DNA from: Neckera pumila | Lineage: Eukaryota; Streptophyta; Bryopsida; Hypnales; Neckeraceae | Length of the DNA stretch: 64,000 bases | NCBI GenBank assembly: GCA_963969595.1 | Contig: OZ018408.1 | Location: 36,518,108 to 36,582,107 of the forward strand | Direction of reading: 5' to 3' | In this document: positions 9,745 through 62,184 of the stretch, in pieces | How the letters are laid out: each line of letters starts with the position of its first letter | Position numbering within the stretch: position 1 is the first letter of the stretch | Position numbers and translations under genes: made by a program | Notes under the pieces: model-generated | Database searches by the model: none | Told to the model about the DNA's origin: nothing | Seen by the model: the letters and a program-made list of their open reading frames with translations, nothing else

Positions 9745-9904
9745 TTATTCACATGGTGTTCAAAAAATGCATTTTAAGATAATTCAAAATCCCCTTTTGA
9801 CTACCAAGAGGACCCTAAAAAAAATTCAATTTAATAGTGAAAACCATGCTAAATCATGTTGAGTTGCTTAACTGTGCAATTTAAGGTGTCGTTACCTTAC
9901 TAAT

Positions 9905-15745: not shown

Positions 15746-16024
15746 GAGGCTCAAAAATGGAGCATCTAAGGGCTAGTTTGCCTTTTTCATGTATTTCATT
15801 GGACGGGAATATTCATAGCTCATTTTCGAGACAAAGAAAAATTGATGAGGAATCTAACCTAAGTGGTTTTGTATTTTTTCAAGCATTTTTGAATTACTTA
15901 TGAATTTTCAAACTTGTTGGGTCGTAGGTTCCTATTTGTGAGCGTAGATCTTTTATAAATGGTTCATTTGCAATTCTAAATAAAAATGGGGAAAGCAAAG
16001 AAAATGATTGGCTCTTGCAATTAA

Positions 16025-16937
16025 CCCCTAAAAGCTCGTTGTCCCTTTGGGGGACAAATGCGTTTTTGGGTAGGTACCTACGGGCTGAATTTTTCTCTTG
16101 ATTTTTTGAAACTTTTTTGGGAGGTAGAAAAACGGATTAGCTTCATGGGAATATAATTTTTTTTCACAATCGGTGCCCAGGAACAAAAGTTATGACCAAA
16201 TAAGTTCAAAAGAGGGGACGGCGGGCAGCAAAAAAAATTTGCACCTTTTTTTCTTAGTATTTTTTTCTCATAGATTATATTTTTGTCTATCTAAAAAGCT
16301 TTGATTCATTTCATTTGGATTTGTTATGAGAAAGTTATGGGCATTCTTGTTTTTTTGAGCAGTTAGAGCATCTTTTTGAATAAAATAACTTATAGGATTC
16401 ATTTCTAAATGCAATTTTTCAAAATTTTCAAATTTTTTTTTTGCATGGTTAAGTTTACTTGCTACAACAATCTGACCATTGGGCTTAGTGCATTTTAATT
16501 CCATCTAAAATATATGAATATTTTAGATTTTCCTTCTATCTTGTACCTACTTCTACTCAACAATTTTTTCAATAATGAAAATTAAGTTTTTTTGAATCTT
16601 TTTTTCTGGGTAGATTGTCAACTCAATTCTCCACTATAAACATTTAAAGTTCAAAACTCCGTAGTGTAAAAAATTTAAGTTAAGAATGTTCAAAGTCAAA
16701 AAATCCAGTCCCACAATGTGCTGAAAATTTTGTTTTTTTCACTTTAAATGTAGATATCTTGCAATTTGTGTGGTCAAAAATTCTGAAATTTTTTCCGCAC
16801 ATTCTCATACTAGTTAGGTGTAAGATCCTATGGTTAGATGTGCAAAAAAAGACATTTTTAATTTTTTTCACTCTTTGCTAAAAAAATGGCAATTTTGGGT
16901 GTTTTTTGGCAGAAAAAAGGCCTTGGCCCTTTAGGGG
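16025..16937 (+). mobile_element. TTAA-type (piggyBac-like) MITE
   Basis: Preceded by TTAA (16021-16024) and followed by TTGA, a probable one-base decay of TTAA. Termini are CCCCTAAAAGCTCG and GGCCCTTTAGGGG. Just inside the left end is a hairpin TTGTCCC-TTTG-GGGGACAA, which recurs at the same place in the large element starting at 43982. The right 200 bp ('ctttaaatgtagatatcttgcaa', 'tgtggtcaaa', 'gtaagatcctatggttaga') also recur near 52040-52234. It has no open reading frame of note (913 bp). Confidence 0.8.
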
Positions 16938-16941
16938 TTGA

Positions 16942-20908: not shown

Positions 20909-23185
20909 TCAAGAAACCTGCGTAGCACTGCCGTTAGTATCAGCTGCCCCAAACGAACAAGATGGATCACTTGCACTCAGTCGATCAGAAGAATTTAAGT
21001 AAGAAGTCGGGTTAGCATACAGAAAACGGTAGTTAGTATCATTCTTCCAAAGTGGGATAGCATCGCTGATAATGTAATCTATTGCCTCCTCTGGCCCTTC
21101 CAAGGCAATGCGCAACATTGCCTCAAGATTCTTGCTACCCAACCGGTTTCTAACTCTAGTCTTGATCAAATTCTGTACACTGAAAGCACGCTCACATGTC
21201 GCTGTAGAAATACACTGCACACGAGCTAACTCTGCAAGAATGAGGAGGTTAGGGTACCGTGCTTGTAAGGTGTGATTCCAAGTTATCATACCCCACAAAT
21301 CCCTGAAATTCTTATCCCCCCATTCCGTGGTGCACTGAAGTTTAAAGGCCAAAAACTCACGCTTACATGCTACTTGGTCCACAAGAGGAGGGAGTTTGAA
21401 GCCTGCATGCGAGCGGTCTACTCCGTAATGGCCCAACAAAGTCTCCAATTCGGAGATGCACCAATTCTGCAACCCCACCTGCTTGGAAGGCATATTAGTA
21501 GGGTTCAAAATCTTAAAACAGGAAATCAAGTCATTATCACTGAAGCGTGCATCAAGGCCAGAACAAATAGCCTCTGCAAAATTCTTTTGGAAAGTCAGTG
21601 CCTCCTCCAAATCAGTGCCAAGCCTCGACCGTGTCATTTGGAAGCTGTGGAACATGGATCCCTTGACCTCGGACTGCAGCCTCTTCAAGTACCCACCATG
21701 AGGACCATAATCGGGCAAAACATGATAACCAATGGATTCATTGAAGACATCAGCATTCAAATCACAAGAATCCACAATAAACATCATGCGAATTTGAGCT
21801 ATCTCAGTACGCACAATACTGCCCACAGTTGTGACATCAACAAATTTCAGCTGAAATACTTTAGACAACATGGCCAACGAGTGAAGAATATCAACCAAAA
21901 AGTAGAAGATGTAGATATACTTAAACTGACCCAGTTTCTCCAAAACAGACTTTGCAACAGCTGACTCACTGTCATCAACTTCTTGGAAAAAAACAAGGAT
22001 AGATTCTAGTGAATCACAAAGGGCAGTCACTGCCTGCCACCTACTCAGCCACCGAATTTTGTGATAGCGCTTCATAGTTTTCTTAGAATCAAAAAATTGA
22101 TCTTGCAAGGCTGCGAGTGCATTCTTGCGCTTACCTGACTTATGGAAGAAACCAGAAATTGAATTGAGCAAGGAATCCACTTCAGTGGACAGAACCTTAC
22201 AGTCTACTGCTTTGGCAGCATCCAAGGCCGCAAGATTAGTTCGATGAGCTACGCAGTGACAAGCCAACATGAACGGATTTATCTCATTGCGGAGTCGTGT
22301 GGAAACACCAGTGTGGCAACCCACCATGCTGCTTGCTCCATCGCTCCCAAAGGCTACGAATTTGCTGAGATCTAAATTCCACAGCCGCAGTTGAGATACC
22401 ACAGAGGTAAAAATTGATGCAGAGTCCTTCTTGCCACCATCTAGCTGCAGCAGACCTACAAAAACCGTCACGGGCAGACCCTCCTCTACAATGGTTGCAA
22501 ACATGATAAGATGGCCAGTAGCACTGATATCTGTAGATTCATCAATCATGATGCCAAAGAATGGAGAATTTCAAATCCTACAAATGATCTGTTTTTGAAT
22601 TACTACAGAAATACACCAAACTAGATCATAACAAGCTTTTTCGTTTTGGTACATGGTATTTGTGATAGGAGCTTTCACGGATACCAACAATTTACATAAT
22701 GTAGGGAATTTTGAGTAAGGGAGAGATTCCTTCCTTATAAAGTAGGCAGCTTTGAACAAAGTGTGCAAAGCCTCATCACAAGCACGTTGTCCATTCAAAA
22801 TCGCTTTCTCCATGGTTTTCTCTCCACTGTTGAAAGCCCATGCAAGCCTGCGGTGTTCATTTGAACGAGAATGGTCTACAAACGCATTGACCTTAAAATT
22901 TTTCGACCCCTCATTTGCGTAGACTGAGCGGCCCCCCTTCTCCCTGCAGACTTTGCAAAAGAGTTTGCCCTCCAATGCAGAGAAATGAAGCCAGTCGAAC
23001 TGAGCCGCCCATTGTTCTTTCCACAAGGTTTGAGCTAGTTCAGCCTGGGAAGGAGCTGGTTGATTTGTACCTGGGCTATCAGCTGATCTTACACTTTCAC
23101 TTGTGGACGTCACAAAATTTGAAGAATCCACCTCACGCGACCTTCCAAAGTAGGAGTCTCGGATCGACTTCTACCTCTTTGCCAT
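20909..23185 (-). pseudogene. hAT-superfamily transposase, broken by stop codons
   Basis: The transposase frame is interrupted. From the ATG at 23185 an in-frame TAG follows after four codons, then about 200 open codons, then a TGA at 22571-22573, then 553 open codons to 20909. The N-terminal part has a Trp-rich stretch and a zinc-finger-like region (FCKVC ... H-x4-H). After the TGA come the hAT catalytic-core motifs: IDESTD (first Asp; residue 3 counted from the Met at 22549), FGSDGASSMVG (second Asp, residue 70) and STATCERAFSVQN (Glu about residue 453), the last lying in the C-terminal hAT dimerisation region. The layout resembles the TTF-type/ZNF862-like hAT class. hAT transposases cut and paste DNA in the nucleus, usually with 8-bp target duplications; I could not find matching terminal repeats. 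The stops imply a dead copy unless an intron removes them. Confidence 0.9.
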
Positions 23186-40937: not shown

Positions 40938-42980
40938 TCAGTCCCTCAGTCCAGACAAGAGATGCAAACAATCTTTGAGAGCATCCACACGGCGCTGCAG
41001 ACGGGAACGACTAGATGCACTGATGGCATCCTCCTCCATGAGCGCTCGCAGATCCTCATCGCCACCAGTCGACCATGGCTGATTCATCATCTTGTGATGA
41101 AGCTCGTCCACAATGGCACGCTGCAATTCGAACCTAATCTCAAGAGGAATCTCGTCCGCAAGCCGTTTCTGCACGACCTTCCAGTAGGCGGCTACGCTCA
41201 CCTTCATCCTCCAAGCATCTTGAAAGGTTCGATCCTCGTCGAATATCTCTTCGACAGATATCGCGTCTTCCACTGCTCCGAGCGTCACGGTCGGTGCCGG
41301 CAATGGGTCTCCATGCCTGTCGACTGCCGGAGAGAATACCCCTTGTGCATTCCGCTTCACTTCTCCCATGGCGGCGTTCATTTTCTCGAGTGTGGCGGTG
41401 TAGTAATCGTTCGTGGTGAAGATGATCGAGCTTTCCTTCTCCAGCATCTTCTCGACGAACGCCAGGGTTGAGTTCTTCACTTCCTCCAAGGCCTCAGTCG
41501 CAATCTGCTTGTAGAGTTTCACTAGACGAGGATACCCTTGGACACAGAAGGTGTTGACGCGGAGCACAACGTCGGTGGCGTACTCGAAAGTCTCCTCGAC
41601 AAGCAACGTGCATGTTTCGGTGATGCTCTTGATCTGTTTCCTAATCAGATAATGCAACACTGGATGAGGCAAAAAATTAGGAAGAGCCACTCCTTGGTGT
41701 TCTACGAGTAGTGACCGAATCTCTTCGGTTTGAGATTCGTCCCTCAACTTCATTCCAGCATCGTGAAGATCATCGGCAAATCTCTGAAACTTCTCGTTCA
41801 ACCTTGCTGTGTAACGGAGGTAAGCATCATCTGGAATCTCCACAAAATTCCCATCACGCACGATCTGAGACAACGTCGTAAAATTTTTGTGAAGTATTTG
41901 ATAGAAGACCGCCCTGGCATCACTGCTGCTCTCGACTCCTTTCGGAATCTTGTTCAGCTGCTGGGTGCGCCTACTGAGCGCTTCAAGCATCTGCTTCCGT
42001 ATTCTGGGCAAACATCCCTTCACCATGTCTGACTGGATCAGAGTCAGCTTGCGTGCAAGCTCTGGAATGCCAACCATACTCCCGTCGAGCTCTTTCAGCG
42101 CAGGGTGAGACTCAAAAAGCTCTTTCTCGCGGAGCCTTGCAATAGCGATAGAGTCATCCATGTCCGTGCGATTGCGCACGCAAATGTAGCCCAGGCCGAT
42201 GTTGACTGCATCTGTGGTCACTTTCTCCAGCAACCCCTCCGGCGCTTTGTCCACCTTCGTCACCACTGCCAACGTGCGCTTCCCTTCCTTGTCCACTTGC
42301 TGCGACATGCGAATCGACTCACAAGTAGGAAAATCGACTTGCGCCGAGAGCACATTCAGAATGATGCTCTCCTCGGGAGTAATGTACTGCATGATCATCT
42401 GACTAATCTGCTCATAGATATTCTCGGGTTGGCCATGTACTGGAACCCGAGTAATACCAGGAAGATCCACCATAGTCAGGTCTGGAGCATTCGGCTTTCG
42501 TATGAGCAGCTGAATCGGAGTGTCGCGCACGCCTTTGTTGCACCCGGCGAGCGAGTTCGTTGCAGAGTTGATCGCCGCTTCGATCCGATCCTCCCCGTCT
42601 ATCACTTGGTCCTTCACATCTTCGTAGTCCATCTTGATGATGGATTCCTTCTCAGATCCGCATGACTGGAGTCTGAGGACCAGCGGCACACGAGTCGCAA
42701 TTCCTTGACCTCTTGGGAGTGTGATTCCTGCAAGAGACTCAAGGACGCTGCTCTTCCCGCAGCTTTGATCTCCCACCACGACGATTGTGGGGAGCTGAAT
42801 ATTCTCCTCGGTCACACCTTGTGCCCGCATTTTGTCCACCATGTCCAGCATCGGCCGAATGTCTCTTTGGAATGTGGATTCCAAAGTGTCAATGGGCTTG
42901 ATGTCTTCCATGACAACGATCTCCATCTTCGGGCTCTTAACAGGACTCTTGCCCGATATCTGCGACTGCACAACTCTCAA
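40938..42980 (-). CDS. Dynamin-related GTPase, DRP4/Mx-like
   Basis: An uninterrupted 680-codon frame. The GTPase domain has all four signatures: P-loop GDQSCGKS (residues 70-77), switch I Thr in GQGIATR (T96), DLPG (172-175) and TKVD (241-244). A stalk region follows and the GTPase effector-like helix ends the protein (about 606-680). There is no PH domain and no Pro-rich tail, and the length is right for plant DRP4 proteins, the Mx-like branch of the dynamin superfamily. Dynamin-family GTPases self-assemble and couple GTP hydrolysis to membrane or assembly remodelling; the specific job of DRP4 proteins is not established. The start may be the first Met or Met19 (MEIVVM), since conservation begins after about residue 28. 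The gene has no intron and faces the ligase gene tail to tail. The antisense open frames are shadows. Confidence 0.95.
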   Translation of the reverse strand: MRVVQSQISGKSPVKSPKMEIVVMEDIKPIDTLESTFQRDIRPMLDMVDKMRAQGVTEENIQLPTIVVVGDQSCGKSSVLESLAGITLPRGQGIATRVPLVLRLQSCGSEKESIIKMDYEDVKDQVIDGEDRIEAAINSATNSLAGCNKGVRDTPIQLLIRKPNAPDLTMVDLPGITRVPVHGQPENIYEQISQMIMQYITPEESIILNVLSAQVDFPTCESIRMSQQVDKEGKRTLAVVTKVDKAPEGLLEKVTTDAVNIGLGYICVRNRTDMDDSIAIARLREKELFESHPALKELDGSMVGIPELARKLTLIQSDMVKGCLPRIRKQMLEALSRRTQQLNKIPKGVESSSDARAVFYQILHKNFTTLSQIVRDGNFVEIPDDAYLRYTARLNEKFQRFADDLHDAGMKLRDESQTEEIRSLLVEHQGVALPNFLPHPVLHYLIRKQIKSITETCTLLVEETFEYATDVVLRVNTFCVQGYPRLVKLYKQIATEALEEVKNSTLAFVEKMLEKESSIIFTTNDYYTATLEKMNAAMGEVKRNAQGVFSPAVDRHGDPLPAPTVTLGAVEDAISVEEIFDEDRTFQDAWRMKVSVAAYWKVVQKRLADEIPLEIRFELQRAIVDELHHKMMNQPWSTGGDEDLRALMEEDAISASSRSRLQRRVDALKDCLHLLSGLRD

Positions 42981-43977
42981 AAGTGCACGTAAGAATCATA
43001 TTCATGAAAACCTCGCTCCACTTAGCTGCGACAGTTGTGTCTGTTTACAATCTTTCAACTTTTCAAGCAGTATAGATCATAGCATCAACAAAAAAATCTT
43101 TAGATCAATTCAGTCTAAAGATAATTGACTTTCGGGATAAATTCTCACAGCAGAGGGAATATAGACGCTTACTTACAATGTACCAAAGAACCGTCACAAG
43201 AAACGAAGGCAGAAGATTGTGCAATTCGAAGTTCTCACCAGCCCTATGGAAATGTAATACTCCTGACTTCTACAGTAGTCCTCTGGTTGGAGTGTATGAT
43301 AGACTCTTGGTCTTCGATACTTAGACAAGCACCTGCGATTGAACGAGTGAGTTTAGATAAACAGGGGGCAGTCTATGTAAGGTGGGTACACCCAAAACCA
43401 ACTTGGTGGATCAAGTAGTGTTTAGTCGTCACTAATCCAATATCAGGTATTCATTGCATGGCTTTAAGAACAAGACGGTGGCTAATCTCAACAGAATATC
43501 TTGAGCTGATTTGTACCGTACATCCGCAGCCGTTCCTAAGCTGCTCTGTAATCTGTATATCACCAGCGGTACTGCAGATGTCAGGTTTGATGAAGGAGAC
43601 TAATAAAATAGGATAGAGTTGTAGAATGTAGACATTTAGTTGATCTATCAAGTTAGTATCTAATTGTTACTTATTAGAATATCAAATCCCACTAATGAAG
43701 TCAGTGACAGGTGTGAATCGTCCTTTCGTGTTAATTGCATGGCATAAAAGATTTAGTAGTTCACTGGCTAATCTCAAGGAACTAAGTTACAGTATCCTAA
43801 AAGCATCGCCATCGTGGGGCGGCCAAATCCCCATGGCAAAAAAGGTTCGACGTGTTCAATTGGCCAATCGAGCACAGTGACTTTCAAAGCCTCCACTGTG
43901 ACATGGCCAAGCGGACCTGGTCTTTTCATTGTTTTGGAGACCATTATTGGAAAAGTTGGAAATGTTGGCTACAATCA
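42981..43977. other. Upstream region of the dynamin-like gene, no gene seen
   Basis: This should contain the promoter and 5' UTR of the - strand dynamin-like gene. No TATA-type element can be assigned. The frames here (60-98 codons) have no recognisable content. Confidence 0.4.
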
Positions 43978-44229
43978 TTAACCCCTAAAGGACCATTGTC
44001 CCTTTGGGGGACAAATGGGATTTGGGCATGTACCTTTTTTGGGTAAAAATTCATAAATGTTTTTAAAACTTTTATGGCAGATGAAGAATTGAAAGAGGTA
44101 CGCAGGGGTCCAAAAATTTTGCGAATCGAATTTTCTAGCAAAAAGTTATAGACAATTTTATAGAAAATAGGGGAGGAGGGGCAGGCAAGGCAAGGCCTGT
44201 GGCCAGTAACAAGGTGTTGATTGTGTAGA

Positions 44230-44620
44230 GGGCATTTTGAGCAGGCAAGGCAGCGGGCTGAAAAAATTGGGTCTCCCACTACGGCCGGCTCTGACAAGTC
44301 TTCGACAGCATTGTAGCCAAGGGGCTCTGACCCAGTCTGCGAAGGAGGAGCCGAAAAGGGGTCTGCGATTCTGCTCTGGCGTGGGGTGTCAGCCGCCTGC
44401 GACGTCGAGGAAGTCTGTTGCCTGCCGAGTCAGGAGTGTCAGCGGCTTGGAAGGAGCCCCATTGCTCCAACGACGCTGCCGGTGACCGGAAGCGACGACC
44501 ACAGGGCGGTACAAACCCACCTCGGTTGGCGCCCACAACATCAGTAGCCTACATCATCATCCTCCTCCGCAGCAACAACGCCGCCTGCGGCCATCAATCA
44601 AGGTGGCTGCAGGTTAGAAA
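44230..44620. other. GC-rich stretch with overlapping open frames, unassigned
   Basis: Open frames of 82-100 codons overlap on both strands, as expected from GC-rich DNA with few stop codons. None shows a domain. The segment lies 250 bp inside the left end of the candidate piggyBac element and could be its promoter or subterminal region. A His/Pro/Gln or Ser-rich low-complexity reading ('catcatcatcctcctccgcagc') is near 44550. Confidence 0.35.
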
Positions 44621-45327
44621 AACAATTTATAGTTGCGCTTCTTTCATGAAGAGAATCTGCAGTGATTCGTGCCCAGTATTGTTGAGCATTGCCAAGTGGA
44701 TGAATCTTGCTAGATCTTGAACGCTGTTTTTTTCCTAACCATTGATTTGATTATGAAAAGCTTGAAATTGCAATTCTCAGTGACAGGTAATCTAATCTCA
44801 GCATGAACCGAACTTCCATGCATTCAATTCAAACTTTATTACACAAGGACTACTCAAGCTAAGAAGTCTACGAATTTGAAACGTACAGACTCATATAGGA
44901 CCTGTGCATTAATGACTGAATGCTGCTAGTAGCTACATTCCGTGGCTTCATTTCCAGCTTCGTCAAGCTTTGCAAAGTGTGCCCAGTCTTGCTGCATAGT
45001 TGCATAGCTTGTATGATTTGTAGATGTTCTTCCCAATTTTGATCTTGAACTTGCATCACCTTGCTTTGTTCCTTTCTTTGTGCACCTGCTTCAAACGTTT
45101 GTCCTGTCGTTTCCCAGTACTTCATGACTTCTAGAGTTGTTCAGCCGTGAGGTTTAGGATACACATTCACTGAGTTCAAATTCAAGTATCATGCCGAGAT
45201 ATAGACCAGGGAAAGAGAAATGCAAAGATGTAAGCTAATCTTGTCTTTTCACTTGGCTTTTCAATGAATTGCACGTCGTTGGTATTGCCCAATTTTCTAA
45301 AGCATTCTCACGACTGGTATATTTTGA

Positions 45328-45822
45328 GTGCAGGTCGCATGGGATGGGCTCCCTGTCCACCGCAGCTGCCGCTTGGCAAATCAACTGTCAACGATCAGCA
45401 ATTCAGAGCGTCCACCAAGGATTCCAAATCCAGAAGCCTCTGCACAATTTCTCCCATCAATTGTCTATCCTACCCCACAGTTTGTTCCTCCAGCTCCTCA
45501 ATGCGATACCGGATATGTTGATCCCAATTTCGAACAAGTCATTGGAGAAGTCAATCCTGACTTTCTTGACAGTCAAGAAGTTGTTCACCGTGGTACAAAC
45601 TCTTCATCAAAAGAATTGTCGGAGGATGACTTCGATGAAGGCGTCTATGTTGATGTTGAGACAAGATCGATGGAAGAATTACTTTGGCCGCTGAAAATGC
45701 TCTTTAATCACTGGAGCGCACCCCAACACCGGACGGAAGAAACAAACCGGTTGCAGTCGACGCACACCTGCAGTAGACATTGGCGGTGGAGGAGTGGAAG
45801 TGTCTGCTATGGAGGAGTTTGA
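45328..45822 (+). other. Unassigned open frame, possibly an exon
   Basis: About 160 open codons follow a good acceptor-like site (TTTTGAGTGCAG then GTCGCATGG at 45332). There is no ATG near its beginning. The product would be Pro-rich, then acidic (SEDDFDEGVYVDVE). I recognise no family. It overlaps, in another frame, the proposed first exon of the piggyBac transposase. It could be an exon captured by the element or chance. Confidence 0.25.
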
Positions 45823-45911
45823 TCGCAGAGGGAGCGACAAGCCTGGCAAAGCAGGAGACGGAGACCCACCACCGCCATGTGGAGGCCCGCCGTTGCCTTC
45901 CGCTCGCCTAG

Positions 45912-47587
45912 GTAAGCTTCTGCTTCCTACTTTTCGGGTTTTCATTTTCTTGATTTTTTAGCAATCATTTGTTTGGTTCTTTATTAATTAATTTAAATTC
46001 TGTGTATATAATTATTTAAATTATGTTCTCCTAATATTTACAAATTCAAATATTCCATTATTTTTAAATTAAAAAAATCAAATTTCTGAAAATTCTAATA
46101 TTCCAAGTATTCCAAATATTTTAAAATATTTTAAATTCTATTAATTCAATTATTCCAATTTTTAAATATTACAATATTCTAAAAAAAATCATATAAAAAT
46201 AGAAAACATGAAATAGTTCAAGAATTCGAATTTTCACAAATTGTTTTCCATAGAATGCATAAAAAGGATCAATTTACTATACGCATCAATAAAAAAAAAT
46301 TTCATTGCGATATGAAGGAAATTGTCATTTATGAGTAATAATTCCCCAGAAGCCAATAAATGGACATGCAAGAGCGTAATTCTCCAACTGAGGGAACTAA
46401 ATTATTTTGGTAGCACGGTGTAGATAATGCTCTAGATGTTTGATTTCCAGTTACCAATATTCCTATGATGATTAGTGTTGCAAGGTAGAATTCCAATTGA
46501 AGTGCCTATAAATAAACTAATAAAATTGTTTTCGCTTTCACATAGTTCATTTCTTCCATCTTCTATTCCTTTGAAATCTTCGATTCATTCTTATTATTTG
46601 AACATTCTTTGAAAAACTTGGAAACTAATATGAATGCAAAAAACTAAACTAGGAAAACAATGCTAATCCAAAAACATTGTACACATATAGACCACCACTA
46701 TAACATTCAATATCCACACTTTTGTTTCTCTTAGGAAGTAGAAAAATAAATTTTGCATAGATTGAAGGCATCGTACAGGACATAGTAATCACGACAGTCA
46801 TTTCTTCATAACAATAGAACTGAAATGGAACATCCTGTCATTTATTGTATAGCTCTGAAATTGTGTATACCATAAGCATTTTCACTTAAATCATTTGAGG
46901 TCTGTGGGAAACTGAAGTAGACAATGACTGACAAAATCAATGAATTTGCTTCTCCATAAAATGAATAGAAGCTTCATTTCCTGAGAATGTTCTCATTTTG
47001 TTCACAATGGACTCTATTTGTTCAAATGGGCTCTATTTGTTCAAACGGGCTCTATTTGTTCACTATGATAAGAATTGTTTGATTAGATGTGTCGTCCTTG
47101 AATTTTGTAACTTCCAAAATTAAAAAAATGTGAATTTGTTTATGAAATGTTGGAATTCCATGACATCAAATGGCAAAGTATCATTGATGTTTTTTTTCCA
47201 GTATTCTCCAATGTTCTTTTGCATATGCAATTTCCTTGTACCATTACATCGTGAGAAAGATGGATGTGCGTCTCGATTTTATTGTTTCTAAAAAATGCAA
47301 ATAAGATGTCCGCATGGAAAACATTTTACTCTTGAAATGTGCCACATGGTAATTCAACATAATTCAATAGCATCGCCAGTGGACATTTGGCCAGTACTTA
47401 CATATCATTTTTAGAGTATAAAACGTTATACAGTCTGGAAGTGTCAAATATTTTTTTCACAATTCCACTCTTAGTATTTTTTACTAACATAGTTTAGTAC
47501 CATGTATGCGGCAATGTTTTGAAATAGGTGTGAGTTAATTTTCCAATTTTGTGTCTCAAAATTATATTTTTTGGGGTTTGTTTCTAG
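45912..47587 (+). other. AT-rich proposed intron of the piggyBac transposase
   Basis: Very AT-rich, with no long open frame, bounded by consensus-like donor and acceptor sites of compatible phase. It includes a 19-bp tandem repeat at 47008-47064. An alternative is intergenic DNA with transcription starting further downstream. Confidence 0.45.
47008..47064 (+). repeat. 19-bp tandem repeat, three units
   Basis: Three consecutive copies of a unit close to TGGGCTCTATTTGTTCAAA, with one or two differences each. Confidence 0.9.
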
Positions 47588-49894
47588 ATATTTTGGGGAA
47601 TGCTTATTGCCCATCGGACCCGGATATGTATGGCGGTGCTTCTACATCATGGCAAGGGGAGTTTCCTATAGATGATGGAGACTTCGTGGGTGTTGCTACA
47701 AGTCCCGGTATGAGATTTTCAAGTGTGCCTTATGACATTGAAAGTGAAAGTGAAGTCGAATTATCGGAATTATTGCATATGAGTGATTGCGAAGACGATA
47801 ATGACGGTGGAGACATAGAGGACCACAACAGTGTGAAATATATATATCGAGAGGATTTATGTTATCAACATTATATGACTTATGATCCAGAGCGTCCTCA
47901 ATTCATCGGAGCACTGTCTTCTATTGTTTTGTGGCGTTATTTTCCTACTTTTCTGCAGTTGTTCGAAGTATTCTGGCCTTTCAATCTTCTGAGGGACATC
48001 ATTACGGAGACTAATCGTTATGCCACTGCACCCGACCAGCATGGGAAGACTAAGGGGGGCCCCTCATAGACACCATTTTCTGTGAAGGAGTTACATGTTT
48101 TCATTGCTATTACTTTGTATATGGGAATGAAACGTCAGCCGAATATGAAATTGTACTGGCATAAAAAAAGATCAATATTTCATTGGGACACAATTTCAAA
48201 CCTCATGTCTCGGGGCCATTTTATTTTACTCACAAGATGTTTACATCTTACAAATCCCACGAAATATGTGAGTGACAAAGAACTACCAGGATATAATAAG
48301 ATGGGGCAGTTGAGGTGGTTGCTCAATGCAATTCGACGTTTGTGTAAAAAATCTTGGAATATTGAAAAATTTGGCACCGTAGATGAGATGATGATTCGGT
48401 ATAAAGGCACATACTGCCCCGCAAGGCAGTACATGCCTCAGAAACTGCAGAAGTGGAGAATCAAAGTTTGGTGCCTAGTGGGTTCGGTCTCAAAATTTGT
48501 ATCAAATTTTGAGGTATATTGCGGTAAAGATCCAGCTGTTGTGAATGAAGCATCTGCACCACGTGGTGAACCGAAATTGGCACACAATGTGATTTTGCGT
48601 TTACTGACCTCAAATGAAGGCCAAGGTCATGTTATAGTGATGGGCAACTTTTTTTCCAGCATTCCTTTGTTCAAGGACTTATTGGACAAAGGAATTTATG
48701 CAACAGGGACCGTACAAGCCAATAGAGTGGAACTCCCATTAGTTTTGAAGAACACGAAGGATTTTGCCAAACAACCACAAGGTACTTTGGAATGGCGGAT
48801 GCATGAATCAAGGGCTATTAGTGCTATAGTATGGAAGGATAAAAAGCCAGTGTCAATTCTCTCTATGCATCAGGTGCTCTGCAGTTTCCTTGCCAATTCC
48901 CAGTTGCCCATGTGCCCCGACGAAATGGTGCAACACGGGAAAACATTTTCACATTGCCAATTCACCTCGAATACACTACGCGAGAGGTGTCGATGTAGCG
49001 GATCAACTTCGCGCTTCGTATACATGCCAGACTCAGTCCCACAAGTGGTGGCACCGGGTATTTATTTCCTTATTGACATTAGCATTGTCAATATGTACAT
49101 CATATACCTTGACAAGTGCAAGAATAGAGACCCTCCCTGTCGACCAATGATGCATCTGCAATTCCGAATGCAATTATGTGAAGCTCTTACACATAATTGG
49201 ATTTCTAGAACCTGTTTACCAGATCCAATTCGGCGTTGAAAAGTATGTTATCCGGCAAGTAGTACCATGAGGAGGCCTTGTGTGGTATGTAATGATGGAT
49301 TGCGACCGGTGAAGCGTCCTAAAACATATTGTCCATCATGTGGGAATAAGTTCATGTGTTTGCATTCGGGTTGCTTTCAGAGGTACCACAAAAATCTTCA
49401 ATGACGTGGCATATTTCAAGGTGAATGGAAACTATGACATACATCTCATTACATTTCTATGTTTAATTTTCAAAACATAATTGTTTTGAAATGACTTTGA
49501 ATTTCCTAATGAAAAGTCCGAAATTACACATGCAATATACATAGCAATGACAAGCAAAAAAATTTGGACACTTGATACTTCTATTTCAGTAGTGCTCAAA
49601 TTTTTCCAAAGTTTTATTTACTATATTCAATATATTTTTGGTGTTCTATGGACCCAGAATTGGAATGACTAACTGCCTTCATTTTATTCAAGTATTGGAG
49701 TAAGCCAATACGTTGGTCGCTGGTCATAGGCTTCAGAATGGCCAAGGCAATTTTACGGGGCAACGCCCCTCAAGCAAGGGCGCGCCACTGCCTCTGCGCT
49801 GCAGCGGCTAGGAGGCTTAGCCCCGCTTGCAGCGGCAACCCTGCCTGCTAGGCCACCCCGCTCAGCAGGACCCTCTCCCGCTGTACATATTACT

Positions 49895-50940
49895 TAATTT
49901 GTGTACATATTATTTATTATATTAGGCACCCACTTGCAAATTTGTGGAAGTATTGAAAACATTTTCAAATTTTGAATTTTATTTTATTATTTTACCTTCT
50001 AATCCCAAAAAAATTGGTATACGCGGTGCATTGTTTAATGTTTTAGATTAGGATGCTTGTTTAGGATTACTTGCAACTATTGGGAAGTTTGTGGACAATT
50101 TCAAAATAGAAAAGGCACGTATTTTGGAAGATTGGCCCAACTGTGACTAATGTGACTAATACCCCTCAGGGGCATTAGTCACATTAGTCACAGTTGAGTA
50201 AATTAGCCACAACTTTTGCATGGGTGGATAAATTCTATAAAAATTTGTGTACATATTATTTATTATATTAGTCACCCGCTTGCAAATTTGTAGGAGCATT
50301 GGACACTTTTATAAATTTTCAGCATTTTTTTATTGTTTTTACAACCAAGCCCCCCCCAAATAGGTGTAGATGTTGAATTGTCTAATTTTTTAGGTTAGGA
50401 TGCTTGTTCAGGATTGCTTGCAACTATTGGGAAGTTTGTGGACAATTTCAAAATAGAAAAGGCATGTATTTTGGAAGATTGGCCCAATTGTGACTAACGT
50501 GACTAATACCCCTCAGGGGCATTAGTCACATTAGTCACATTTGAACAAATTTGCCACAACTTTTGTTTGGGTGGGTGAAATTCTATAAAAATTTGTGTTC
50601 ATATTGTTTATTATACTAGGCACCCACTTGCAAATTTGTGGAAGCATTGAAAATATTTTTAAATTTTGAATTTTTTTTTATTATTTTACCTTCTAATCCC
50701 AAAAAAACACGCATTGGTGTACGCATTGCATGGTTTAATGTTTTAGGTTAGGATGCTTGTTTAGGATTACTTGCAACTATCGGGAAGTTTGTGGACAATT
50801 TCAAAATAGAAAAGGCACGTATTTTGGAAGATTAGCCCAATTGTGACTAATGTGACTAATACCCCTCAGGGGCATTAGTCACATTAGTCACATTTGAGTA
50901 AATTTGCCGCAACTTTTGCGTGGGTGGGCACTTTCCCTCG
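49895..50940 (+). repeat. Three about 350-bp tandem repeats, each with one hairpin
   Basis: The units begin near 49900, 50247 and 50598 with 'gtgtacatattatttattatatta' and share 'cacttgcaaatttgt', 'ggttaggatgcttgtt', 'acttgcaactattgggaagtttgtggac' and 'aatagaaaaggca'. Each contains the same hairpin: TGTGACTAATGTGACTAAT, then ACCCCT-C-AGGGG, then its complement (50139-50195, 50487-50541, 50839-50894). The hairpin arms keep near-perfect pairing (A/G at one position) while the loop-side bases are constant. The array lies between the transposase and the right end of the candidate piggyBac element. No protein is encoded. Confidence 0.92.
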
Positions 50941-51339
50941 GGGGAGGGACTAGCAGCAGTTTTTACTACCATGGTAGAGAGCATTTTTTCTTTTGGAGGT
51001 AGTATTCACAATTCTATTTGGTTTCCACTGTGGCATATTTTGGCTATATATTACTACTTAGATACTGTATGAATTTGTAAATGACATATTCATGGCACCA
51101 TATTTCAAATCTTAGCACCATATTCCAATACTTCGGATGAATGTACATTTATGTGAATGAAACAACTAAATTGCCATCCATAATTGTAGATTTCGTCTAT
51201 TTCCATAATTGTAGTTTTTTTGTCAAAAACTCCCTGGCTGCTATGGAAATTGCTTTGGGGAGTGCCTGGAACAAAGGTCCCAAAATTTCACCTGCTGTAG
51301 GTTGTATGTTTCAAAATAAAAAAATAAAAATAAAAATTT

Positions 51340-51655
51340 CACCTGCTGTCCTTGGGGAGGGGGCAGCTTCCGTTGGAAGAGGAGGAGGCGGGTCTTGTTG
51401 GAGAGGGGCCACTTGCCTCTCCATCAGGGGTAGACCACCCCCTATCGCTCTCGTGGGAGCCCTGCCCCGCCAGGCAGCGCAGCCCCTCAGCCAGAGGATG
51501 GCAGGGATGTGGCCAAGTCAGCACTGCGTTGGGGCCCCCGGCCAGAGCCAACGGACTCCTGGTCCAGGCCTGCCATTCCTCTCCAAACTTCATTGTCAGA
51601 AAGGGAATGGAAGGGGCCCGCGTCCATGTCAACGCCCCTTGCAATTTCACAGCCT
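51340..51655. other. GC-rich patch in AT-rich DNA, no gene
   Basis: Overlapping 101-103-codon frames on both strands reflect low stop-codon density. Similar GC-rich DNA lies at 49735-49890. Both are inside the candidate piggyBac element; their origin is unknown. Confidence 0.4.
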
Positions 51656-52238
51656 AAGTGAAACATTAGGTGTTCCACTGTTTTTTGTTTGGAGAGGTGG
51701 TAAATTTTAATTTTTTTTAATTTTTTTTGCACAAAGCTATAGAAGAAGAACATGTTCTCAATTTGACTATTCGGATTTGGAAAATAAAATAAAATTTGGA
51801 GAATGTTTACAAATTTCTCTAATGTAAATGTCATTTTGAAGACCTCCTGGCCTTCCCACATTTTTTTCCATATGATCCAGTGCTCCAAATCATCTGAAAA
51901 TTCTACAGCACATAGCTAACATAATGTACTAAAGAAAGAAAAAAAAGCTCAAGTTTGTGTAGACCAAAATTTCTCATGTACAACCGGTCAAAGACAGCTG
52001 AAATTGCAGGGCAGCATCTAAAAAAACTTCTGCCCTAACTCTGAAAGCTCATAACTTTCAATCCATATGGTCAAACTTGCTCAAACTTTTACCACATGAT
52101 CACTAACAAGTGAACTTCAACATCCTACGGTTTGATTTTCAAAAATCTATTTTTTGGGGCTTACTTTGGTGAACGCAGCTGAAATCACAGTTTTCACTGC
52201 ATTCTCACAGAAAATGAGCTTGGTCCTTTAGGGGTTAA

Positions 52239-52533
52239 TGTAAAAGCTAATTCTAAATTTGAATTAGAGATCTACAGTGATTGTGCTCCATTGCTCCACT
52301 ACACCACTACTTCTATTTGTTTGGGTGTGACTTGTTTGGTCTATTTTTTTATTTATTTAATTTATTTCTTAAACAAATAGAAAAAACCATTGCAGTTTGG
52401 TCTATTTTCAAGCAAGCTTTTATATTGCATTTTTTTGGAGCTCTTATAAATTTTTTTGAACTAATTTTAGGCCCCACATCTATAAATAATTAAGGGATTA
52501 TAAATAAAAGTTTTACCTTTTACATTGAAAATT
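52239..52533. other. AT-rich DNA right of the piggyBac candidate
   Basis: T-rich, with a 70-codon frame lacking any recognisable feature. Confidence 0.35.
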
Positions 52534-57443: not shown

Positions 57444-60400
57444 TTATGAACTAAGTTGTGTCTTTTCCTTTCGGACTTGTGCTAACGATCGCATCTTCAT
57501 TGACAACATATGTTTGTGGTGGGAAGATGGTGGTAACGTTTTTGTAAACAAATCAGCGATGTTCTCGGCAGAGGTAATCTTCTCGATGGATATGGTGCCG
57601 ATTTTTGTTTGCTCAGCAGCATAGAAGATTTTCGGTGTCAAATGCTTCGTATTGTTGGATTTAATGAAACCTTCTGACATCTGGTGCCGGCAGGCGTCAT
57701 TATCCTCGAAGATCTTCATAGGTTTTATATCAATCTCGAGGTTTGCTAACGTTTTTAGGCTTGATGACATATTTCGCAGCCAAACAGCTTCCTTGGTGGT
57801 GTCAAATAAGGCGATCAATTCAGCATGATTTGAAGATGTTGCGACTGTGGGTTGTAGCTTCGAACTCCAGGAGATCGCTGAATCAGCCATAGTAAAAACG
57901 TAGCCGGACTGCGACCTTCCTTTCTCAGGAGCCGACAGGTACCCGGCATCTGCATAACCTTTAATCGGTTGGAAATTTCTTTCAAAAAGAATGCCGTAGT
58001 CTCTGGTCCCGTTCAAGTAACGTAGCATATGTTTTACTCCGCGCCAGTGTCGTTTAGTCGGTTCCGCGCTATGTCTTGACAATAAATGAGTTGAGAACTT
58101 CAGGTCTGGTCTTACATTTAGCGATAACCAAGACATTGACATTACAGCGGTAATATATGGGTACTCCGAAGAGAGTATCTCTTCATTCTCTCGCAACGGA
58201 CCATACTCGTCTTGATCCGTTTTTAGGGTTCTAACCGTTAAAGGTGTGGAGACTGGATGAGCCTCTGACATCGCGAATTTCTCGAGAAGTCTACTTGTAT
58301 ATGAAGTCATATGCAAGAATACAGAGCCGTCCTCAAAATGCTCTAGTTCCACGCCTAAGCATCTTGGAGTTCGTCCATAGTCCTTGATTTTGTACTTGTG
58401 TTTCATCAGGTCAACAGTTTTCTCGACTGCTGCCCGAGTGCCGAAGATATTTAAGTCATCGACATAAATTGCGATCAGCACAAGGTGCTTTCCTCTGCGG
58501 TTCACAAATACACAAGGTGTGTATTTATTTGCTTTAAAACCCTGTTGGATCAGATAATCCGTTAAATTCTGGTACCATAGTCGTCCAGACTGTTTCAAGC
58601 CATAAATGGCTTTTTGGATCCTTACAACTTGACCCAGTTCTCTCTTTCTCTTCCTAGAGATGATATTCAGATTTTCAAGATTGGTAGGATCTGAGGAGGG
58701 GGCAAACGTCACACGTTTATGGCCCTTTCCCAAATCCTGCGTTTTCTTGTCGACTAGCTCTGCTTTTGCTCTCTGGGACTGTCCCGAGTTGCCCATATCC
58801 TGCATTGAGCTCTCTTTTGTCGAGTTGATGGATTCTACCCCTTCGGGGAGCTCCATACACATTTCTTTGTCCATCCTGCCATACAGGTAGGCTGTGACAA
58901 TATCTAACAGTCTAAATGAGAGTCTTTCCTGCACAGCCAGAGCTATTAGGAATCTGAATGTAATTGAATCCATTACTGGGCTGTAGGTGAAATCATAGTC
59001 AATTCCAAACTGTTGAGTAAAGCCCTTCGCAACTAAGCGTGCTTTATAGCGGATTATCTTTCCTTCAGAGTCTCTTTTCTTTGCAAAAACCCATTTAGAA
59101 CGAATGGGTTTCATATCAAGTGTCTTAGGCTGCGGCACCCCAAAGACTTGTCTTTCTTTCATTGAATTCATCTCATCTTGCATTGCACGTTTCCAGTGCG
59201 GCCATTCTACTGATCTCTTTGCTTGTGGGACCGTTTTTGGTATGTCAGGGTTTTCTAAAATAGCATTGACGGTGTGCACCATCAAGGCTTCATTCTTACA
59301 AATGGTTCGTCTATCCCAGACGTGATCAGTGAGTGCTACATCCGTTGCTTCTTCGAAGCTAGACTGGTTAGTTGCTACTCCCCTTGGACCTTGTGTTACT
59401 CCCCCTGTCTCCGGCAATGCCCCCCCAGTAATATGTGGTGCTCTCCCTAAATTCTTTGGCTTATTTTTAGACCCTAAAGGACGTCCCCTTTTCCGTCGAA
59501 TTTGAGAGACGTTCGCCGGTGTATTATCTGGTAGTATTCGTGCTGGAGTGTATTGGACTTGGGTGTAGGGGGTTTTTACAATATCAGGTGTGTCAGCAAA
59601 AGCATCAGGTAGCTTGCGAGCAAGTTCTTGCAGCCTCAGTATTCGTTGCACTTCCCCATCGCAGCGATAATCTGGGCTGTCGTCAATTGTCGTTGTATGC
59701 CAATTAATGTCTAAAACCGTGGCAGGCAGCTGTTCTTTGATTTCCATGAATGGAAAATGTTGTTCATCAAAATGGCAGTCTAGAAACCTTGCCCTAAATA
59801 GGTCTCCAGTTTTTGGTTCTATATACTTTATCAGGGAATTACCTACGTTCCCAACGTAGATACCCTGCTTCCTCTGAGGTCCGAACTTTTTCCTTTTCGT
59901 GGGGTCAAGCGGCACCTCAACAGAACATCCGAATTTCCTTAAATGTTTTATATCCGGTGCATTTCCCGTCGCTAACTGATGTGGACTCATCTTATTTCCT
60001 GCAGATGGGCGGTATCTAATGAGATCAGCAGCATGCATTACTGCGTGGCCCCAGGCCGTTAAAGGTAAGTTGGACTTGAGTAGCAGAGGACGAGCTATCC
60101 ATTGTATTCTCCGAATTAAGCTTTCGGCGAGTCCATTCTGAAAATGGACTTCTGGTAGTGCTACTTCAAGTGTTATACCTTGTGCTGTGCAGTAATTTTG
60201 GAATGTTTTAGACGTAAACTCACCTGCCCCATCAACTCGAATGTCCCTGACACTATTATCTGGAAATCTAACTTGCATCCTAATTAACTGTATCAACATC
60301 TTCGCGAAAGCGTGATTCCTTGTTGACAACAGGTTGACCTCACTCCACCTTGAGGTGGAGTCTATCATCACCATAAAGTACCTAAATGGTCCTGATGGTG

Positions 60401-62114
60401 GTGATATTGGGCCACATATGTCAACCTGAATGCGATTGAGAAAAGGTTTGAGCTCTTTATCTTTTATTTCTTTTGCTGGACGTAGTATGAGTTTGCCCCG
60501 AGAGCATGCCAGGCATGACTCGGGTAGCCTTGATGAAATTTTGATGTTTCCCGCTGTCGATTTTAATATATTTTGCAGCATTCTCGTTGAGGGATGACCC
60601 AGGCGGTCGTGCCAAAGTCTGCCATCATCAGTGATCTCTCCTGTAAGTGCAATAAACTCGTTGGTTGCTATTTCAAATTCGATAAGGCCATTGTCAGTAT
60701 AATAAAACTTCTCTGCACAATTTCCATGTTCGTTTGTAAGGGTCTTGAACCTTTCCCTTGTCGTGAATATGTGTGTGTTGATCTCATAGCCACTGTTAAA
60801 CACATCATTCTCGCATAAAACTTGTCTTCTTGCCGTCGGAATAAGAAGAGCTCTTTCAGCATAGATGCGAGTGCCTCCAGGTAAAATAAACGTAGCTGGT
60901 CCTGATCCACGTACAATGAGATTTAAACCACTCATCGAGGCTATCTTATAGTTTTCACGCTGCATCTTCGTGAAGTATTTGGCACTTTTGACGACTGTAA
61001 TTGTCGCTCCTGAATCAAGTAGCATCATTGATCTATTTGTCCGCTGTTGCTGTTCAAATACTGCATTTGTCTCCTCAAGGCGAACCTGGTCCAAATAATT
61101 ATATTCATCTTCGTTTTCAGTACGTTGCTTTTGATTTTTGTTCTTGTCATTACTGATTTTCTTAGTGCCTCTCCAGGGTGACAAATTATTTTCTCTTCGG
61201 TATTTATCAACAACGTCCTTTGGTGTTCGACAATCTCGTGCGAAGTGACGTTTCTTGCCACATCTGAAACACTTCCCAAAGGTTTTTGATTTATTCTTCC
61301 TTATATTATCCTCATCTTTCTTACCAGGGGTCGCGGATCTCCGAGCCCTCTTCTCTTGTCGTTTCCACGGTTTTCTTCTTCTGTTTGGATCCTGCTGCTT
61401 TTCTCTTGTGTAATTCAATTCTGGGGTCGCTATAGTCCCAGCAGGTCTTTGTTTTGCCAATTCTTTTGCAACATTGTTGAATTTCTCATTCTCAGCCAGG
61501 TAAATGAATAGGTCTCTTGAGTTCTTATATTCTCTTGCTAGCAATGACTCTCGAAGTCCCATCCTTTCGGGTCCCATTGTCGATAATGTCTTGAATATTA
61601 TGTTTTCTTCTGTTACTGGCCTCTTACAATATGCTAGCTTTGCTGTCAGTTTAAATAGCGCTGCTTTATAATCATCAAGTAGGTCAAAATCCATATGACG
61701 AAGACTTAACCATGCTTGCCATGTTTCAGGATATGTAATTTCACGCATGGCTTCAAAACGGGATTGAATCTCTTCCCAGAGGTCGCAAGGTGTATCATGA
61801 TGATACATTTGAAGGGCTAGATCGTCTTTGAGTCTTAGACGGATTGCTAAGGTAGCTGTGTCTTTCTGCATTCGATCATAATCTGCTTCGGACTTTCCAA
61901 AAATCAATGTGGGATCTTCTTCCTTTGCCTTCCTCCGTCTTTCTACTTCAGCCGGTGTCGGTGGGCGAGTTGTTATACCCTCTAAGCCTTTACTAGAAAG
62001 GTATTGACGCATATTCGTCATCCACATTATGTAATTTGTCCCGTCCTCTTCCAATGGTTTGAAACCTGGTTCTGCAGGTATTCTTGGATAGACAGATTCT
62101 GTTTGTAAGGCCAT
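57444..62114 (-). CDS. Copia Gag-Pol polyprotein, intact
   Basis: One uninterrupted 1556-codon frame. In order: a Gag domain (Trp-rich start, about 20-230); a CCHC zinc knuckle CFRCGKKRHFARDC (about 280-293); the aspartic protease LLDSGAT (about 366); a GAG-pre-integrase segment LWHDRLGHPS; the integrase DDE core (VDICGP about 565, VDGAGEF about 628, NGLAES about 662); reverse transcriptase from about 1000 (RYKARLVAKGF, LDIVTAYLYG about 1070, catalytic YVDD about 1218); and RNase H (GYADAGYLS about 1386, NHAELIAL, ENIADLFTKTLP). The order integrase before reverse transcriptase is diagnostic of Ty1/copia. It is made as one polyprotein and cleaved by its own protease; the products form cytoplasmic virus-like particles, copy the RNA into DNA and integrate it in the nucleus. 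A hydrophilic insert of about 60 residues (Ser-, Lys-, Gln-rich) sits inside the reverse transcriptase before KAIYGLKQSGRLW. Confidence 0.97.
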   Translation of the reverse strand: MALQTESVYPRIPAEPGFKPLEEDGTNYIMWMTNMRQYLSSKGLEGITTRPPTPAEVERRRKAKEEDPTLIFGKSEADYDRMQKDTATLAIRLRLKDDLALQMYHHDTPCDLWEEIQSRFEAMREITYPETWQAWLSLRHMDFDLLDDYKAALFKLTAKLAYCKRPVTEENIIFKTLSTMGPERMGLRESLLAREYKNSRDLFIYLAENEKFNNVAKELAKQRPAGTIATPELNYTREKQQDPNRRRKPWKRQEKRARRSATPGKKDEDNIRKNKSKTFGKCFRCGKKRHFARDCRTPKDVVDKYRRENNLSPWRGTKKISNDKNKNQKQRTENEDEYNYLDQVRLEETNAVFEQQQRTNRSMMLLDSGATITVVKSAKYFTKMQRENYKIASMSGLNLIVRGSGPATFILPGGTRIYAERALLIPTARRQVLCENDVFNSGYEINTHIFTTRERFKTLTNEHGNCAEKFYYTDNGLIEFEIATNEFIALTGEITDDGRLWHDRLGHPSTRMLQNILKSTAGNIKISSRLPESCLACSRGKLILRPAKEIKDKELKPFLNRIQVDICGPISPPSGPFRYFMVMIDSTSRWSEVNLLSTRNHAFAKMLIQLIRMQVRFPDNSVRDIRVDGAGEFTSKTFQNYCTAQGITLEVALPEVHFQNGLAESLIRRIQWIARPLLLKSNLPLTAWGHAVMHAADLIRYRPSAGNKMSPHQLATGNAPDIKHLRKFGCSVEVPLDPTKRKKFGPQRKQGIYVGNVGNSLIKYIEPKTGDLFRARFLDCHFDEQHFPFMEIKEQLPATVLDINWHTTTIDDSPDYRCDGEVQRILRLQELARKLPDAFADTPDIVKTPYTQVQYTPARILPDNTPANVSQIRRKRGRPLGSKNKPKNLGRAPHITGGALPETGGVTQGPRGVATNQSSFEEATDVALTDHVWDRRTICKNEALMVHTVNAILENPDIPKTVPQAKRSVEWPHWKRAMQDEMNSMKERQVFGVPQPKTLDMKPIRSKWVFAKKRDSEGKIIRYKARLVAKGFTQQFGIDYDFTYSPVMDSITFRFLIALAVQERLSFRLLDIVTAYLYGRMDKEMCMELPEGVESINSTKESSMQDMGNSGQSQRAKAELVDKKTQDLGKGHKRVTFAPSSDPTNLENLNIISRKRKRELGQVVRIQKAIYGLKQSGRLWYQNLTDYLIQQGFKANKYTPCVFVNRRGKHLVLIAIYVDDLNIFGTRAAVEKTVDLMKHKYKIKDYGRTPRCLGVELEHFEDGSVFLHMTSYTSRLLEKFAMSEAHPVSTPLTVRTLKTDQDEYGPLRENEEILSSEYPYITAVMSMSWLSLNVRPDLKFSTHLLSRHSAEPTKRHWRGVKHMLRYLNGTRDYGILFERNFQPIKGYADAGYLSAPEKGRSQSGYVFTMADSAISWSSKLQPTVATSSNHAELIALFDTTKEAVWLRNMSSSLKTLANLEIDIKPMKIFEDNDACRHQMSEGFIKSNNTKHLTPKIFYAAEQTKIGTISIEKITSAENIADLFTKTLPPSSHHKHMLSMKMRSLAQVRKEKTQLSS

Positions 62115-62184
62115 CGACGCTCCTTGTTTTTAAATTTCGTTCAAAACTTCTCTTTTCGCTCTGCGGCGAGCAGTGCTGATAACG

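Follow-up and report, generated by a model that had tools for sequence, protein, structure and literature searches.

A decayed piggyBac element at a TTAA site in a moss genome, with relatives that seem to have moved recently

Introduction

Do two identical inverted termini that lie 8.25 kb apart in DNA of the moss Neckera pumila, with a broken transposase frame between them, mark one mobile element? Work on piggyBac, which is widely employed as a transposon tool, has dealt mostly with animals. The window (the whole 64,000-nucleotide stretch that was analysed) was described in an earlier note as carrying a single piggyBac element with TTAA ends in plant DNA. The 18-bp termini are as that note described them: TTAACCCCTAAAGGACCA occurs exactly at 43978-43995 (+) and at 52221-52238 (-), and the window has eight matches to it with three or fewer mismatches, against 0.05 expected. 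The region 43978-52238 is almost certainly a single 8.26-kb piggyBac element, old and inactivated, in the nuclear genome of a moss. Paralogues, empty sites and the Pfam domain PF13843 all agree with the note on this point, the plant host being a moss.

The transposase gene and its relatives

The coding features of the window copy are as follows; paralogues A and B are two further copies of the element, and E17 and E24 name related families.

45191..45229, + strand: predicted first coding exon (MPRYRPGKEKCKD), followed by a GT...AG intron at 45230-45333; a prediction from sequence
45334..45780, + strand: N-terminal block of the transposase, second exon, by tblastn with the E17 and E24 frames
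45912..47587, + strand: candidate second intron or family-specific insert, with GT at 45912 and an AG ending at 47587
47539..49401, + strand: main transposase region, broken by a stop at 48067, frame jumps at about 48830-49150 and a stop at 49237
48643..48645, + strand: position of the second catalytic Asp, here occupied by Gly (VMGNFFSSIP); paralogues A and B have VMDNFFSS

The piggyBac signature motifs listed in the earlier note are all present, spread over two frames. VDEMMIRYKG and NFFSSIPLF lie in the frame 48070-49236, GVDVADQL with KWW lies in a separate frame (48830-49147), and a Cys-rich tail with CFQRYH, recognized by eye, ends near 49401. A Pfam search matched PF13843 to 48070-49236 (E = 1.1e-48), and phmmer matched the window-copy transposase to the solved piggyBac transposase 6x67 (8.5e-16); both concur with the motifs. 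In the C-terminal Cys-rich region no Pfam model scored over the cut-off, and the PF13842 zinc ribbon was unmatched in the window copy and three relatives; a Cys/His pattern is nevertheless visible at the C-terminal end of the window copy and of two open-frame relatives. The N-terminal block is 41% identical to the E17 894-aa frame (E 1.7e-20) and 43% identical to the E24 844-aa frame (E 2.9e-23). The same exon/intron layout, read by eye, stands ahead of AWDGLP/AWDALP in both families, and 45912..47587 is without a counterpart in their continuous frames. A scan of the window with Rfam (gathering threshold) and for tRNA gave no matches.

Is the gene still functional? To judge from its stops, its frame jumps and the loss of the second catalytic Asp, whose column in an alignment of 15 proteins is conserved to 90% or more, the window transposase is dead, and the note's description of it as decayed stands. 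Its relatives are in a different state. The genome gives at least 113 rows of transposase matches, and 15 copies besides the window copy have long uninterrupted frames. Three open-frame relatives contain PF13843 and keep all three catalytic Asp residues (DEMM, MDNFF, GVD), whose columns are near-invariant in the 15-protein alignment; one of the open-frame relatives matches the solved structures of piggyBac (6x67, 3.2e-35) and piggyBat (9c0f, 1.7e-23). The pair E24/E26 has 99.6% identity across 7.3 kb and the same 18-bp ends as the window copy, and E24 has an open 844-aa frame; E17 and E19 are 99.4% identical, with an 894-aa frame in E17. Because these near-identical copies have unbroken genes, related families seem to have moved recently in this genome.

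Might the sequence instead represent a domesticated gene that serves the host? Animal PGBD genes are domesticated piggyBac transposases, and a conserved transposase domain with long frames in many copies would fit such a role. In the window copy, however, the frame jumps, stops occur and one catalytic residue is lost, and the seven full-length elements that were delimited lie at unrelated places, each between TIRs with TTAA at either side, which makes domestication very improbable and argues for a mobile element.

Ends and insertion site

The ends of the mobile element and its flanks are these.

43784..43977, + strand: left part of the target repeat, from the joined flanks compared with uninterrupted copies elsewhere
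43978..43981, no strand: left TTAA target-site copy, from the sequence and from the single TTAA at the corresponding place in 8/8 fetched empty-site copies
43982..43995, + strand: left terminal inverted repeat (TIR), CCCCTAAAGGACCA, exact; exact in paralogue A, one mismatch in paralogue B
52221..52234, - strand: right TIR (the plain end), exact, and exact also in paralogues A and B
52235..52238, no strand: right TTAA target-site copy, from the sequence and the empty-site comparison
52239..52531, + strand: right part of the target repeat, from joined-flank matches and empty-site copies

The TIR of the window copy is thus a C-rich 14-bp sequence adjoining TTAA and exact at both ends. Do the two ends belong together? 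The note had cautioned that they might come from two separate MITE insertions, which would then flank an unrelated transposase relic. The terminal 18-mer is indeed very common, with 9,941 exact copies in the genome (4,919 plus 5,022; the reversed control gave none), and several (+,-) pairs with this kind of spacing are to be expected by chance. The first 100 sites of the listing include 3 neighbouring (+,-) pairs with a spacing of 1.5-10 kb, where random placement gives 4.9 on average, and 6 with a spacing of no more than 1.5 kb, where it gives 1.0. With roughly one 18-mer in every 34 kb, a pair of ends at a distance of 8 kb is therefore unconvincing in itself, and judging the pair by spacing alone was abandoned after the genome count; left and right ends were paired through individually fetched loci. 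The alignments of paralogues A and B (91-92% identical to the window copy) begin precisely at 43978 and break off precisely at 52238, and the flanks of A and B are unrelated. Since two paralogues with unrelated flanks share start, interior and end, 43978-52238 is one element and not two MITEs. The same two ends also bound six deletion derivatives, and the two flanks, when joined, run on as one repeat across a single TTAA. Independent insertions thus have next to no probability, and the caveat is refuted by the co-terminal paralogues and the empty sites. Transposase copies elsewhere with the same termini, which the note had proposed to look for, are found in A, B and E24/E26.

The empty site that the note also proposed, linking the left and right flanks through one TTAA, was likewise found. 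The joined flanks match uninterrupted repeat copies in six places, at 83-88% over 347-395 bp, and a single TTAA joins both flanks in all eight fetched copies of the target repeat. The window copy inserted at a TTAA within an older repeat, uninterrupted copies of which persist elsewhere. Family E17 sits inside a 930-bp MITE, for which continuous empty-site alignments were obtained at nine places; eight of these have a single TTAA and one has TTCA. Two further candidates were put aside: a possible empty site for the derivative L052 at window positions 7999-8117, which has a 5-nt gap at the junction, and a match in the flank of paralogue A that runs through TTAA but is too short, at 23 bp, to be counted.

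Host

The host is taken to be a moss because a neighbouring DRP4C-like gene, about 1 kb from the element, is 74% identical to that of Ceratodon purpureus; the next named species is Physcomitrium patens. Animal or fungal contamination of the assembly, to which one might be led by the named relatives in the protein search (animals, at 25-30% identity), can hardly be entertained, given that transposase matches lie on contigs C1 to C11 (C1-C10 being 23.5-52.8 Mb), that the element lies inside a repeat which occurs elsewhere in this genome too, with the moss gene close by, and that a tree splits the moss copies from five named animal proteins with support of 100/99.

Hairpin and internal repeats

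Two further structures are found within the element.

43993..44018, + strand: subterminal hairpin (CCATTGTCCC-loop-GGGGGACAAATGG), a predicted fold that overlaps the left TIR
49896..50928, + strand: tandem array of three units, each about 346 bp long and containing a GTGACTAAT palindrome, from the sequence

The hairpin scores -14.7 with RNA parameters. Over the first 44 nt, the hairpin end has 86-89% ungapped identity among three families, whereas the other end has 50-75%. Compared with mononucleotide shuffles, the hairpin end gave z values of -1.6 to -2.8 in seven of seven elements, so the fold alone only modestly exceeds what composition gives. Folding also predicts a stem, though a smaller one, for the plain end in the window copy and in paralogue A (z -1.4 and -1.5); the idea of a strictly one-sided hairpin was thus dropped, and it is the conservation alone that is one-sided. 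The tandem units are present also in paralogues A and B (87-92%), and E24/E26 carry a counterpart 3' of the gene (69% over 273 bp). In one piggyBac family the orientation of the gene is flipped relative to the ends. This flip and the conserved hairpin beside one TIR are newly described here.

MITEs and deletion derivatives

Did this element give rise to the MITEs that surround it, as the earlier note proposed? The proposal holds only in part.

44652..50145, + strand: segment missing, with one shared junction, from six of six fetched non-autonomous copies elsewhere in the genome (L051-L056)

These six further fetched left ends all proved to be 2.7-3.45-kb deletion derivatives with the same right end, and these are what the element's own family has produced. 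The deleted unit is ambiguous because the right side of the junction falls in the tandem array. The proposal does not hold for the MITEs of about 930 bp at 8822-9747 and 10690-11615 in the window. What they have in common with the plain ends of several families is the last 18 bp and, at about 70% identity, 120-200 bp of subterminal sequence; their origin as internal deletions of the window copy was rejected, the subterminal likeness being equal with other families. A further element, at 16021-16941, has two piggyBac-type ends and only 59 bp (85%) in common with the left end of the window copy. That piggyBac transposases of this genome mobilized the MITEs is a fair inference.

Comparison with known piggyBac systems

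The ends of animal piggyBac elements are asymmetric. The moss elements resemble them in this, in TTAA at both ends, short TIRs and single-TTAA empty sites, and, with respect to the insect (6x67) and piggyBat (9c0f) proteins, in the PF13843 DDE domain and the three Asp residues of the open-frame relatives. They differ in their moss host, in a long acidic N-terminal region with a predicted spliced first exon, in stop-to-stop frames of 844 and 894 aa, in the TIR CCCCTAAAGGACCA with a conserved hairpin beside one copy, in the palindromic tandem repeats of 346 bp that two families have on the 3' side of the gene, and in the flipped gene of one family. They are also longer, 5.6-8.3 kb compared with about 2.5 kb (2,472 bp in the passages seen of PMC10813416). 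The same passages describe piggyBac elements of up to 9.51 kb in compact animal genomes, whose transposases reach 1,316 aa and whose TIRs measure 4-24 bp; the length and large protein of the moss elements therefore have precedent, although those elements have animal hosts and other terminal sequences. One review (PMC10175614) states that a piggyBac TIR should begin with CCYT. The moss TIR begins CCCCT and differs at the fourth letter, which is treated as a departure of the moss lineage.

What of other plants? In the portions available, a repeat annotation of the fern Ceratopteris lists 1,230 PiggyBac fragments with 122,417 bases (PMC6890710), and PiggyBac appears as a MITE-class label in an angiosperm MITE list (PMC10004981). 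The superfamily name is the same, but in these excerpts it stands for an annotation or MITE class only, whereas the moss has bounded elements, empty sites and recent open-frame copies. No native bryophyte piggyBac element was found in the examined passages of the open-licence literature; the two hits in PMC10619864 proved to be the word 'piggybacking'. The moss element is a new member of a known superfamily.

Proposed history and significance

How might this family have arisen and decayed? In its active stage, its own transposase would have recognized the TIRs, and perhaps the adjoining hairpin as well, and by analogy with animal piggyBac the element would have been excised at TTAA and inserted into TTAA. 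The family may then have diverged by 8-9% and decayed, leaving full-length fossils and the 2.7-3.45-kb deletion derivatives, the latter of which must have depended on a transposase supplied from elsewhere. Related families in the genome still have uninterrupted frames, with termini that are identical or closely alike, and seem to have been mobile recently.

By itself, the window copy is only a fossil of this moss piggyBac system. A moss genome in which bounded copies are numerous, empty sites are clean, recent copies have open frames and short relatives run into the thousands is, however, a natural system for studying the life of piggyBac in plants, the matching of transposases to the MITEs that they move and the role of the conserved end hairpin. 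Do mosses harbour their own piggyBac lineage, currently or very recently mobile, with modular ends (the hairpin, and gene cassettes in either orientation), that has seeded several thousand to ten thousand TTAA-bounded copies, mostly short, in one genome? The chances for and against this seem evenly balanced. If true, the moss piggyBac lineage would have had a large part in shaping a plant genome, something that the animal-centred view of this superfamily does not include.

One element in an older repeat

The stretch from 43978 to 52238 is one element. An earlier note, made from the sequence alone, had described identical inverted 18-bp ends (TTAA plus a 14-bp TIR), and these are exact at 43978 and 52238. 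Do they belong together? The 339.5-Mb genome contains 4,919 + 5,022 exact copies of the 18-mer and none of its reversed control. At this abundance opposed ends 8 kb apart can occur by chance, and the note's own caveat of two separate MITEs is therefore serious. Searched with the transposase, the genome yielded at least 113 matches (106 of 1,014 first-look candidates scored; some transposase genes are split across two matches). The two nearest relatives, paralogues A and B, lie on the same contig, and with their loci extended outward the alignment of each to the window begins exactly at base 43978 and stops exactly at base 52238. This shared start and end shows a single element, not two MITEs. 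Paralogue A (8,005 bp) has both 18-mers exact; B (7,876 bp) has one mismatch in the left. Identities are 92.3% (window-A), 91.5% (window-B) and 91.5% (A-B), with K2P distances of 0.083, 0.092 and 0.092.

The left 200 bp has at least 40 matches among those scored from 1,216 candidates; 19 of the scored matches, the element itself counted, have at least 86% identity, and 18 of these begin with the first base of the element. From this set, six were selected for having no adjoining transposase match and were fetched. All six finish at the window element's right end; window 44652-50145 is missing from them, and 2.73-3.45 kb remains. Both 18-mers are exact in five of these deletion derivatives; the sixth, L056, has altered ends.

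The earlier note had also proposed a search for the empty site. The 200 bp on either side, joined through one TTAA, gave at least 52 matches genome-wide from the 40 scored of 47 candidates; two of the matches are the flanks in the window itself. Matches are continuous in six places (83-88% over 347-395 bp) and partial elsewhere. All eight junction-crossing places fetched carry a single TTAA, as against TTAA-element-TTAA in the window; thus the element inserted into an older repeat following the TTAA rule.

The transposase gene, its host and its relatives

The piggyBac protein motifs and the decay of the transposase, both read in the earlier note, stand. PF13843, the piggyBac-type DDE domain, is matched at E=1.1e-48 (Pfam) and the solved transposase structure 6x67 at 8.5e-16; the zinc-ribbon model PF13842 has no Pfam match in the transposase. 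Decay is seen in two stops, frame jumps and loss of the second catalytic Asp, which is Gly here and Asp in both paralogues and in those relatives that were read.

45191-45229, predicted first exon, 39 bases, before the N-terminal block
45230-45333, predicted GT-AG intron between first exon and N-terminal block
45334-45780, N-terminal block matching relatives with open frames
45912-47587, candidate further intron, unproven
48067, stop codon
within about 48830-49150, frame jumps
49237, stop codon

The genes of A and B contain stops too, and A has lost the GT of the first intron. By eye, E17 and E24, members of two further piggyBac families of this genome (E17/E19 and E24/E26), have the same exon-intron layout ahead of that AWD motif, with a different basic peptide.

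The neighbourhood includes the following.

40938-42995, minus strand, DRP4C-like dynamin-related gene, one unbroken frame
20909-23170, minus strand, two adjoining frames, by eye like a hAT-type transposase or related zinc-finger protein
57444-62129, minus strand, continuous 1,561-aa frame, by eye like a copia-type polyprotein in its motifs

The start of the element lies upstream of the DRP4C-like gene, about 1 kb from its predicted start. The protein is 79% identical to an unnamed protein and, among named matches, 74% to Ceratodon purpureus (best) and 56% to Physcomitrium patens (next species), which bears out a plant host, a moss and presumably one other than Ceratodon. In a maximum-likelihood tree of 48 rows (midpoint root for drawing only), the 18 genome copies included, of 30 fetched transposase loci, form one group with one metagenome protein (100/99). 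This is nested in a 35-row group (100/99), otherwise of unnamed environmental proteins. Five named animal proteins fall outside the latter; relations among the animal rows are unsure because two have long branches.

By the defining features tested, the element belongs to the piggyBac superfamily. Its TIR starts CCCC, whereas the rule in one review is CCYT (PMC10175614). Long elements and long transposases are already known from animals (PMC10813416), and in plants piggyBac appears as annotation labels in PMC6890710 and PMC10004981. The open-licence literature, partially covered and thus limited as evidence, yielded no native bryophyte piggyBac. The element is a new member of a known superfamily, with some unusual structure.

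Structure of the ends

In all seven full-length elements compared, one TIR is followed directly by CCATTGTCCC-loop-GGGGGACAAATGG or a near form, and neither GTCCC nor GGGAC occurs within 400 bp of the other, plain end. Over the first 44 nt, ungapped, the families share 86-89% identity at the hairpin end as against 50-75% at the plain end. Compared with shuffled sequence, the predicted fold gains only modest stability (z -1.6 to -2.8). A smaller predicted stem is present at the plain end of the window element and A, and absent in B, E17, E19, E24 and E26; the case for the hairpin hence rests on conservation, not fold. The exact TIR followed by TTGTCCC occurs 511 + 558 times in the genome, about a tenth of the exact 18-mers. 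The hairpin may be involved in recognition.

The gene points away from the hairpin end in the window family (the element, A and B) and E17/E19, and towards it in E24/E26. In the window family the gene has palindrome-bearing tandem units of about 346 bp on its 3' side, with a counterpart there in E24/E26 (69% over 273 bp). Which unit is joined in the deletion derivatives is ambiguous, because the right side of the junction lies within this array.

Relatives with open frames

Fifteen of the 113 transposase matches, the window copy excluded, cover 370 or more of 389 residues with no stop. E24 and E26 lie on different contigs, share 99.6% identity over 7.3 kb (global alignment) and are bounded at both ends by exactly the 18-mer of the window element; the E24 stop-to-stop frame is 844 aa. 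E17 and E19, with TTAACCCCTAAAGTCCCA ends, are 99.4% identical over 5.6 kb (global alignment), and the stop-to-stop frame of E17, 894 aa long, contains all three catalytic motifs. E17 lies within a 930-bp MITE, and its joined flanks align uninterrupted to nine other places of that MITE kind among the fetched loci, two of them in the window (9259-9454 and 11132-11328); the junction is TTAA in eight and TTCA in one. Data from both families speak for recent, though not necessarily present-day, movement.

Two other arrangements were seen. Copies L013 (C4:5886497, minus) and L014 (C4:5920304, plus) are oppositely oriented and separated by about 34 kb. Their identity is 98% across a compared span of 3.9 kb that may be entirely intra-element; they represent either a recent insertion pair or a local inverted duplication. 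At L028 (4032-4035), two piggyBac-type termini abut with one common TTAA, as if an element had inserted at another's very end.

Origin of the MITEs

The window holds the following TTAA elements.

8822-9747 and 10690-11615, MITE pair of roughly 930 bp, same orientation, 81% alike
16021-16941, 921-bp element with one hairpin-type and one plain-type end

In its two end types the latter resembles a miniature of the autonomous piggyBac elements; no source element for it was found. Eight 3-kb loci around the first 18-mers listed were sampled (L001-L008; L003 overlaps L004). Five of the focal 18-mers (L002, L004-L007) lie within 927-970-bp elements, of the size class of the window's MITE pair, whose second end is 3-4 bases off the 18-mer. 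L001 carries the same 18-bp terminus on a 747-bp TTAA foldback (772-1518, 89% self-complementary), the L003 18-mer is a hairpin-type end, and L008 shows a single end.

Did the window element give rise to the MITEs nearby, as first proposed? This finds no support: the subterminal likeness, about 70% over 120-200 bp, is shared equally by several piggyBac families at their plain ends, none favoured. It is likely that the MITEs were moved by piggyBac transposases of the same genome.
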